Below the pieces are notes generated by a model. It had not been told where the DNA came from, did no database searches, and was given only the letters and a program-made list of their open reading frames with translations. This document shows positions 2,431 to 52,450 of a stretch of DNA of 64,000 nt, one piece after another. This stretch comes from Sinomonas sp. ASV486. Its GTDB lineage: Bacteria; Actinomycetota; Actinomycetes; Actinomycetales; Micrococcaceae. The position numbers and the translations under genes were made by a program. Within the stretch, counting starts at the first letter, position 1, and every line of letters starts with the position of its first letter. The stretch is from NCBI RefSeq assembly GCF_030908215.1, contig NZ_JAVFJK010000006.1, positions 124,001 through 188,000 on the forward strand, read 5' to 3'.

Positions 2431-2471
2431 GTGCCGTGGGACACTGCAACCCGTCAACCCCTCGACGCTGG

Positions 2472-2633
2472 GGGGTCACCTCTCAAGGTTGCGGGGTCAT
2501 GTCTCGAGGTTGCGGGGTCACGTCTCGAGAGTGGGCCTTGCCACAGTAGAGAGGTGACTCCTCATCGTGCGGAGGTGACTCCGCAACGTTGGGAGGTGAC
2601 TCCGCAACGTTGAGAGGTGACTCCGCATCAGGG
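2472..2633. repeat. Inverted array of 21-bp repeats (3 units, spacer, 4 opposite units)
   Basis: Three direct 21-bp units starting GGGGTCACCTCTCAAGGTT at 2472, 2493 and 2514 are followed by a 15-bp spacer and then four units in the opposite orientation (GAGGTGACTCCGCAACGTT) at about 2550, 2571, 2592 and 2613. The last unit runs over the stop codon (2628-2630) of the alpha/beta hydrolase gene. The region lies between two minus-strand genes, so the transcript could fold into a long branched hairpin at the end of the upstream operon. It fills most of the 269-base gap between 2359 and 2628. No protein-coding capacity is believable here. Confidence 0.85.
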
Positions 2634-44999: not shown

Positions 45000-45015
45000 C
45001 CGCCTCCCTCCCGCC

Positions 45016-45172
45016 GAGGTCACGCCGTGTGGTGTCGAGGTCACCGGGTGTGGTGTCGAGGTCACGGGGTGTGGTGTCGAGGTCACCGGGTGGGTGTTGA
45101 GGTCACCGGGTGTGGTGTCGAGGTCACGGGGTGTGGTGTCGAGGTCACCTCTGGCGCTGAGGTCGCCCGGTG
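45016..45172. repeat. Tandem array of 21-bp GAGGTCAC repeats
   Basis: Six near-identical units (GAGGTCACCGGGTGTGGTGT core) start at 45016, 45037, 45058, 45079, 45099 and 45120, followed by two degenerate units to 45172. C/G alternates after GGTCAC between successive units. The array lies between the convergent metG and DUF559-type genes. There are no unique spacers, so it is not CRISPR. It shares the GGTCAC core with the array at 2472. Confidence 0.85.
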
Positions 45173-45240
45173 GCCGCGGTCATCCGGCGGCACGGCGGCG
45201 ACTGAACATCGCTGTCCGCAACGCGTCTGGGCAGTGTCTC

Positions 45241-46212
45241 TCACGCGACGTCGAACAGGGCATGCGGCGTCGTGAGGAAGGCACGCACTTTGGTGCGGAG
45301 AGCCTCGACGTCGTCGAGCTCGGGCCAGTACACGTTGAGAACGCGCCATCCAGCAGCGACCAGCCGTGCCTCGCGCTCACGCTGCGCTACAACCTTCGTG
45401 TCCGGCGGTCCGTAGTCGAAGTACTTCGCGTACCCATGAACCTCGATGACGAGCCGCCTCGCTGACCAGGCGAAGTCGACGCGTTCACGACCACCCGCAG
45501 TCGCGATCCAGAGCTGGAGCTCTGGTTCGGGAAGGTTCCATTCCTCCAGAAGCAGACGGAAGCGTGTCTCGGCCGGAGATTCCGAGAGCCCGTTGGCGGC
45601 GGCCAGCGCCTCACGGACTCGCCGTATTCCACGCGTGCCCCTGCCTTCGACGACGAGACGACGGATGGTCTCACGATCTGCGCCGTTTGCGAGCCCGGAG
45701 TCGGCGATGATCACGGCCAGCTCGAAGGGCAGCAACCGCGCGCAGTCGATGATGGTCCGCTCCAACGAGGTCACCCTGAGCCCGCCCCTGGTCGTGACCT
45801 GTGAGTCAGGGATTCGTTGGTTGTGCCGCACGATGTCGCACGCGGGACCGGAGTTTCCCCGACGGCCAGCATGCGCGACATGTACGAGCGGCCGCGCACG
45901 CCACACCGAGAGGCCCCAGATCAGCGCCGCCGATGTGTGGGTGTATACGTGCGAAGCACCGGTCGAGGCGGCATGGTGCGCGCAGATTCTGATGATCATG
46001 GGATCAGGAGTGCCAACCCCCATCGGCGCATAGACACCGCGTCCCTGTCGGGACAGGTCGCCAGAGTCGGTGAGGCTCCGGATGGTCTGGTCATCGAGAC
46101 CGGCGGAGCGAAGCTGACGTCGCGTGAGCATGGGGACGGGGGAAGCCGCTGAGGCGGCCAGATCACCAATCCGGTTCCGGGCGTGGGGAGTGAGGTCGAG
46201 GTCGAGGTCCAT
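45241..46212 (-). CDS. DUF559-type nuclease-fold protein with AbiEi-like N terminus
   Basis: 323 residues. The N terminus (MLTRRQLRSAGLDDQTIRSLTDSGDLSRQGRGVYAP) is a winged-helix segment like those in AbiEi-type antitoxins and many actinobacterial DUF559 proteins. The C-terminal 110 residues have an endonuclease-like pattern: ESPAETRFRLLLEEW, RVDFAWSARRLVIEVHG and REREARLVAAGWRVLNVYWPEL, that is E, D and ExH positions of a Vsr/PD-(D/E)XK fold. Biological role of the family is not established. It is flanked on both sides by arrays of 21-bp repeats (45016 and 46299) in opposite orientation. No toxin partner gene is present. Confidence 0.75.
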   Translation of the reverse strand: MDLDLDLTPHARNRIGDLAASAASPVPMLTRRQLRSAGLDDQTIRSLTDSGDLSRQGRGVYAPMGVGTPDPMIIRICAHHAASTGASHVYTHTSAALIWGLSVWRARPLVHVAHAGRRGNSGPACDIVRHNQRIPDSQVTTRGGLRVTSLERTIIDCARLLPFELAVIIADSGLANGADRETIRRLVVEGRGTRGIRRVREALAAANGLSESPAETRFRLLLEEWNLPEPELQLWIATAGGRERVDFAWSARRLVIEVHGYAKYFDYGPPDTKVVAQREREARLVAAGWRVLNVYWPELDDVEALRTKVRAFLTTPHALFDVA

Positions 46213-46298
46213 GGTGGGAGTCTCCCGTCCCGACTCGTCATCCGCAGCGTCGCGACCTTGTATGTGGATAACTCAAAGGGTCGCGCGCCTGCAGCTCC

Positions 46299-46380
46299 AG
46301 GGCGACGTCGCGGCCGTAGGGGGTGACTTCGCGTCCACAGGGGGTGACCTCGCGCCCGCCGGGGGTGACTTCGGCGCTAT
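46299..46380. repeat. Array of 21-bp GGGGGTGAC repeats upstream of leuB
   Basis: One degenerate 19-bp unit at 46299 and three 21-bp units at 46318, 46339 and 46360, each beginning (A/C)GGGGGTGAC(T/C)TCG. The core is the reverse complement of the GGTCAC core in the array at 45016. It lies between the divergent DUF559-type gene and leuB and ends 61 bases before the leuB ATG. Confidence 0.75.
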
Positions 46381-52258: not shown

Positions 52259-52264
52259 CGCTCA

Positions 52265-52378
52265 GCGACCCCGCAACGTCCTGCCAGAGACCCCGCAACG
52301 TCCTGCCAGAGACCCCGCAACGTCCTGCCAGAGACCCCGCAACGCTGTAGGGTCTCTGGCGTTGTGCTGTGGGGTCTC
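52265..52378. repeat. 22-bp tandem array with inverted end, before the tRNA cluster
   Basis: Three full units (GAGACCCCGCAACGTCCT core) at 52265, 52287 and 52309, a shortened one at 52331, then an inverted partial unit ending GTGGGGTCTC at 52378. The CCCCGCAACGT core resembles CTCCGCAACGT in the array at 2472. It fills the first part of the 304-base gap between the HAD gene and tRNA-Gln; the second part holds the tRNA promoter. Confidence 0.8.
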
Positions 52379-52450
52379 AGGTCAGGCTCTCATCGCGCGA
52401 ACATGACACGGATCACGTGCGCGAGGGGTTCCGTGACCGTGTTGCGGATT

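Follow-up and report, generated by a model that had tools for sequence, protein, structure and literature searches.

What place does a nuclease-like gene have between two arrays of short repeats that face each other? The question arises in a stretch of DNA of 64 kb, here called the window, which is part of a genome of 4.28 Mb (G000 below) from the soil bacterium Sinomonas. The gene lies at 45241-46212 on the minus strand and encodes a protein of 323 aa with an AbiEi-like winged helix and a Vsr/EDxHD-like nuclease part. According to Pfam, its neighbours are the genes of methionyl-tRNA synthetase (metG) and isopropylmalate dehydrogenase (leuB). The left array (45015-45149, plus strand) begins 16 bp past the metG stop codon and consists of about 6.5 units of 21 bp with 90% matches in TRF and with the core (GCC)GAGGTCAC. 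The right array (46300-46373, minus strand) occupies the gap that separates the start of the nuclease gene from that of leuB. It has about 3.5 units of 21 bp with 81% matches in TRF, and on the minus strand its core reads GAAGTCAC/GAGGTCAC. Because the left cores GAGGTCAC read on the plus strand and the right cores on the minus strand, the arrays are head-on, and the bracketing of the gene by opposed 21-bp arrays, first proposed in a sequence-only reading of this DNA, is borne out by TRF on both sides. Chains of at least three cores at a spacing of about 21 bp occur four times in the window, whereas 100 resamples from a first-order Markov model gave a total of two.

All eight Sinomonas orthologues have significant arrays on both flanks, which is the opposite of the gene occurring mostly without repeats, the outcome that the sequence-only reading had named as damaging to it. 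Every orthologue found adjoins leuB. Upstream of the gene in the window there is a TATGTGGATAAC motif (46261-46272, plus strand), and the strings TGTGGATAA/TGTGGACAA, which are akin to it, were seen by eye upstream of the seven other orthologues. TGTGGATAA(C) is also present upstream of several family genes (window 46261-46272, L030, L031, L034); we take it to resemble a DnaA box.

The same reading had given the product a winged-helix N terminus and a Vsr-like, DUF559-type C terminus. The first part is confirmed by Pfam, where the N-terminal AbiEi_4 domain alone was recognised (1e-9); the second finds no Pfam match in the protein itself and rests on its homologues and on the predicted fold. 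Among 37 homologues, Pfam identified AbiEi_4 in 17, REase_MTES_1575 in 10 and DUF559 in four. The AlphaFold2 model of the 323-aa protein has a mean pLDDT of 90.1 and a pTM of 0.87. Its top matches in a Foldseek comparison with the PDB were the AbiEi antitoxin (6y8q, E 7e-7) and then Rv2827c (1zel, E 5e-6); the catalytic domain of I-Bth0305I (3r3p, E 2e-3, rmsd 2.7, target-normalised TM 0.80) came next, followed by Vsr (1vsr, E 0.017). For the C-terminal part, the profile of the 37 homologues matched the endonuclease-like protein 3hrl (E 5e-6) and 3r3p (E 0.0095). Residues E211, E215 and D246 are invariant in the 37 sequences, and E257 is present in at least 90% of them.

Judged by the model, the N-terminal and middle part would have the same fold as AbiEi and Rv2827c, proteins of type IV toxin-antitoxin systems, and the C-terminal domain would resemble the EDxHD/Vsr nucleases (I-Bth0305I, Vsr, DUF559). 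According to PMC7319586, AbiEi binds two 23-bp inverted repeats with 3 bp between them, the paired 23-bp inverted repeats of AbiEi-family proteins are located in their own promoters, and Rv2827c binds two repeat pairs with 13 bp separating the repeats within a pair. A DNA-binding part for inverted sites of about 20 bp is therefore expected in the nuclease protein, and by analogy this part may read the arrays described here. The gene shares with the AbiEi family the inverted repeats of about 20 bp, which here stand upstream as arrays; it differs from AbiE in the extra C-terminal nuclease domain and in the dispersal of its sites over the genome. No AbiEii (DUF1814) toxin gene is present at the two adjoining genes, which are metG and leuB. 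Unlike in homing of the I-Bth0305I type, we saw neither an intron nor an intein, nor one single site for homing: the gene is intergenic, between repeat arrays.

How closely does the number of arrays follow the presence of the gene? The sequence-only reading had suggested counting arrays in genomes with and without it. We compared 15 Sinomonas genomes, eight with a close orthologue (66-100% identity) and seven without one, and counted unit pairs about 21 bp apart, summed over the three core variants GAGGTCAC, GARRTGGGG and GARRTCGGG, the patterns being taken from gene-flanking arrays. Arrays proved frequent in the eight genomes with the gene (79 pairs in G000, 82 in G011, 129 in G006, 32 in G003, 127 in G009, 40 in G005, 46 in G012 and 84 in G007) and scarce in the seven without it (1 in G001, 3 in G002, 4 in G004, 1 in G008, 8 in G010, 0 in G013 and 1 in G014), while the reversed-pattern controls gave 0 or 1. 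The separation is complete, 32-129 versus 0-8 (exact Mann-Whitney p 1.6e-4, kinship ignored). On the leuB tree the presence of the gene needs four changes, at least three of them forced by well-supported branches, and therefore presence and absence do not go back to one old split. In the metG-leuB gap of the gene-less genome G010 single units persist at both ends, and the same gap of G002, also gene-less, holds one possible degenerate unit; such loci with unit remnants look like losses. The arrays decay after the gene is lost.

As the patterns were drawn from gene flanks, a fourth variant in the gene-less genomes was a concern. A variant-free check with TRF on 20 evenly placed 20-kb stretches per genome found GARRT arrays of period 21 four times in G006 (five period-21 arrays if L261, with an altered core, is included) and five times in G011, and none in the 20 stretches each of the gene-less G014 and G002. 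One array flagged in G002 has a period of 22 bp and belongs to another family. This genome lacks a gene of the 21-bp clade, yet 22-bp arrays are plentiful in it (nine in 400 kb), and it carries two L037-like genes, L338 and L340, with 22-bp arrays on both sides. A single GGTCAC pattern was rejected as a measure over the genus. It gave 124, 129, 42, 23, 136, 2, 231 and 6 in genomes with the orthologue and 4, 64, 14, 3, 29, 2 and 8 in those without, a result blurred because several repeat families were mixed and two core variants were missed.

The last bases of the core differ between species. The variant at the gene flanks, the same on both sides, is CAC in G000, G011, G006 and G003, GGGG in G009 and G005, and CGGG in G012 and G007. 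In seven of the eight genomes it is also the main dispersed variant. The exception is G005, with GGGG at the flanks and with 2 CAC, 13 GGGG and 25 CGGG dispersed; this genome could be in transition, or it could be a counter-example. Eight of the 22 clusters of G009 (GGGG) and seven of the 24 clusters of G007 (CGGG) adjoin orthologues of genes that stand beside the 24 clusters compared in G000 (CAC), one of the seven (L230) being an array-on-array match. Positions are therefore partly conserved while the cores differ, and the core has changed species-wide at conserved positions. Residue differences between the proteins of the core-variant groups were tabulated, and no specificity residue could be named.

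The gene of dihydrolipoamide acyltransferase (E2) contains arrays within its coding sequence. The lipoyl domain is followed by an array, the E3-binding domain, an inverted array and the catalytic domain, all in frame; as 21 bp make seven codons, arrays in the E2 linkers would grow in frame. The linker arrays of each gene-bearing genome carry its own variant, GAGGTCAC, GARRTGGG or GARRTCGG. Forward and reverse cores number 5 and 7 in both G000 and G011, 3 and 3 in G006 and 2 and 2 in G003 for CAC (with one CGG in G003), 5 and 5 in G009 and 4 and 1 in G005 for GGG, and 5 and 4 in G012 and 2 and 1 in G007 for CGG. In gene-less genomes, CAC cores number 2 and 2 in G010, 1 and 1 in G002 and 0 and 1 in G004, the last two with one CGG each; G013 has one CGG, and G001, G008 and G014 have no cores.

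The dispersal of the repeats over G000 is seen from the pattern GGTCACN{14,16}GGTCAC, found 76+48 times against 2+1 for the reversed control. A survey of their context covered 70 clusters of arrays in three genomes, G000, G009 (S. mesophila) and G007. Convergent gaps hold 28 of them, codirectional gaps 24 and divergent gaps three; 14 overlap a called gene and one lies at a locus edge. Convergent gaps are thus enriched for arrays (28/55 versus 5/54 window gaps, Fisher p 2e-6), and a depletion from divergent gaps is suggested, not significant (3/55 versus 6/54, p 0.32). Of 74 arrays in classed gaps, 53 follow a same-strand gene at its 3′ end. Arrays that occur together are mostly head-on (21 of the 70 clusters); the other clusters have one array or, twice, two codirectional arrays. 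Among the 14 overlaps with called genes, a check showed the E2 case to be genuine, and the other called genes may be false ORFs. At several sites (L019, L039, L040, L042) the space between gene end and array holds the palindrome CGCACGACGGCG...CGCCGTCGTGCG, a probable terminator.

The cores are kept while the linkers vary. As the linkers between cores are not alike at different sites, there is no clear sign that sites were recently copied from one another. Between G000 and G011, which belong to one species, nine of 14 sites were comparable; all nine are common to both genomes, with no gain or loss of a site among them. Unit number changes within the species, as seven of these nine shared sites differ in length (+126, +43, -22, -29, -61, -21 and +40 bp), in steps near the repeat period.

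Several of these features are in keeping with a network of host binding sites, in which the protein would be a chromosome organiser or regulator, each site would be selected, the nuclease domain would be a vestige or serve regulation, and the shift of the core would be slow co-evolution. Array positions conserved across species, their place near the ends of transcription units and the kept cores with variable linkers all agree with it. So do the paired inverted promoter repeats of AbiEi-family proteins (PMC7319586) and, for the 19-bp family in G012, the fixed 27 bp that separate the inner cores at 18 of the 19 sites with a pair. Conserved positions, this fixed geometry and the lack of new sites between strains favour such a network, or else a slow activity of the protein. 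However, in-frame arrays in the E2 linkers are hard to see as useful sites, the separate selection needed to rewrite several units at many sites would be demanding, and the residues of the nuclease motif are conserved. For these three reasons (E2 insertions, core rewriting and nuclease residues) we favour an explanation by nuclease and repair and consider the network of selected sites, its main rival, unlikely.

Does the same gene account for the other arrays of the window? The sequence-only reading had taken the arrays at 2472 and 52265 as products of one process, and this is not supported; their cores match other families, which flank paralogues. The first is an array of a second 21-bp family (2461-2529, plus strand, core GGGGTCAC), head-on with its partner at 2551-2627 on the minus strand (family cores GGGGTCAC/GGAGTCAC); in S. 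mesophila (G009), the homologue L341 has units like those of this family (CGGGGTCACCTCCCAACG) at its flanks. Beside the 2461 array, at 2401-2426, there is a 26-bp ATCGTATACGATC tandem/palindromic sequence. The second is a 22-bp array (52263-52344, minus strand, core GGGGTCTC; GGGGTCTCTGGC on the minus strand), and its core GGGGTCTCTGGC also occurs in the flanks of the paralogue L036 (G000:C13:27141-27950). Over 52263-52385 this minus-strand array is followed by plus-strand units, so that the two members of this pair face away from each other, which those of the 21-bp pairs do not.

Flanking repeats are found in much of the gene family. At the 37 Sinomonas loci with a homologue, tandem periodicity was significant upstream in 22, downstream in 19 and on both sides in 17, with neither flank at p<0.01 in 13 of them; the eight orthologues, whose arrays have a period of 21 bp, group together in one clade (100/100). 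A further set comprised 20 weak homologues, of which 17 are closest to L036/L037, with 780 ORFs of at least 200 aa from four genomes as the control. Arrays of 18-23 bp stand on both sides of 13 of the 20 (with periods of 19-22 bp) versus 3 of the 780, and on at least one side of 15 of the 20 versus 95 of the 780.

A 19-bp family with the core ACCGTC behaves alike. RACCGTC pairs number 47 in the genome with L056, 15 in that with L048, 14 in that with L050 and 8 in that with L049; there are 7 in G007, where the gene is split, and 0-2 in the other ten genomes (controls 0-2). The split gene, L091 of S. gamaensis (G007:C6:70903-71612), forms two ORFs. ACCGTC arrays are lacking with the intact homologue L076 of S. 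mesophila. Of 20 ACCGTC sites read in G012, 19 have an inverted pair, and in 18 of these 19 the inner cores are exactly 27 bp apart, the centres being otherwise variable. The periods of 19 and 22 bp misfit a simple rule of two helix turns.

By coincidence, ordinary intergenic tandem repeats might have expanded for replication reasons, with the gene merely among them, and the near-period steps of unit number at seven of nine shared sites are what any tandem repeat would give. But the array counts separate by presence and absence of the gene, the flanks of the weak homologues differ sharply from those of control ORFs, and the ACCGTC family repeats the behaviour of the first; we give coincidence hardly any credence.

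In S. susongensis the gene of the 19-bp clade (L077) is inverted relative to its flanks, which are otherwise collinear (compared with L076, L078 and L091 over 4 kb), as if it had flipped between its inverted arrays. This inversion, and the head-on layout common to array-gene-array and array-gap-array, would suit a classical mobile element. The arrays would then be its terminal repeats, the copy with the gene would be autonomous, and solo pairs would be MITE-like derivatives that transpose as units. Yet the gaps contain local sequence (the E2 domain, terminator-like palindromes), all nine comparable sites are common to two strains of one species (close relatives only), and all orthologues found adjoin leuB, and such an element appears to us quite improbable.

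In a wider set we analyzed 66 loci from several actinobacterial genera, with significant flanks upstream in 22, downstream in 16 and on both sides in nine, a few of them being simple sequence. The number of 9-mers shared from flank to flank exceeded the 99th percentile of mismatched pairs in inverted orientation at 29 of 87 loci and in direct orientation also at 29 of 87, versus 0 and 5 among 83 neighbouring control genes. In the other genera, direct sharing (19/48) was about as common as inverted sharing (21/48).

Among known systems, the sequence-only reading had compared the locus with RAYT/REP elements, and the comparison holds for anatomy and evolution and fails for the enzyme. RAYTs are single-copy, vertically inherited genes tied to REPINs, which are inverted REP pairs with variable spacers (PMC8049555). 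Likewise, the Sinomonas gene is flanked by its associated repeats in inverted orientation in all eight orthologues, has a single locus and vertical inheritance, and goes with inverted pairs dispersed mostly outside genes and scarce where the gene is absent. The Y1_Tnp transposase of RAYTs (PF01797), however, was found in none of the 15 Sinomonas genomes, while the control search matched five of 14 well-known genomes; therefore the Sinomonas system is not a RAYT. Its enzyme is AbiEi-like plus Vsr/EDxHD-like, its units form tandem arrays of 19-22 bp, in contrast to REP hairpins, many of its gaps are long and consist of local sequence, and a gene can contain arrays in frame. In the passages located by term in PMC3733652, which deals with REP superfamilies, neither Actinobacteria nor Arthrobacter nor Micrococc- is mentioned. 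In the open PMC literature searched, we found no description of this nuclease family with dispersed arrays. We rate the parts as new as a category and the way of working as close to that of RAYT/REPIN.

Regular arrays of protein sites of about 20 bp, inverted at two ends, are also known from iterons (vertebrate-style or plasmid) and from the ends of Tn7-like elements. The Sinomonas arrays differ in that neither a replication gene nor a transposase gene is linked with them.

The coupling of nuclease and arrays is well supported. We conclude, with a probability of roughly 0.6, that the gene and its dispersed arrays are one two-part, vertically inherited system, a counterpart of RAYT/REPIN with an unrelated enzyme. 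From the pattern described we infer binding, cutting and repair-driven copying, as well as any benefit to the host. A single-copy chromosomal protein would read the 21-bp unit (GCCGARRT plus three to four species-specific bases) through its AbiEi-type winged helix, and its domain resembling Vsr and I-Bth0305I would nick or cut DNA at the units. Repair of the break from other units would lengthen or shorten arrays and keep them alike within a genome; a shift in the preference of the protein would lead to rewriting of the arrays, and loss of the gene to their decay.

A wider version of this conclusion falls a little short of even odds in our estimate. By it, the AbiEi-Vsr fusion nuclease would drive a second kind of long-lived bacterial repeat population: it would cut weakly matching units, repair would copy arrays over them, a change of preference would rewrite tens of conserved sites, and many paralogous pairs with differing cores and periods would coexist in Actinobacteria.

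If this is true, there is another such repeat population, with an unrelated enzyme, and one can ask which properties of these populations are general. The three natural core variants, each with its own proteins, would make both the recognition code and the rewriting directly testable. A nuclease family so far annotated as DUF559/REase_MTES_1575/AbiEi_4 would thereby gain a testable function.
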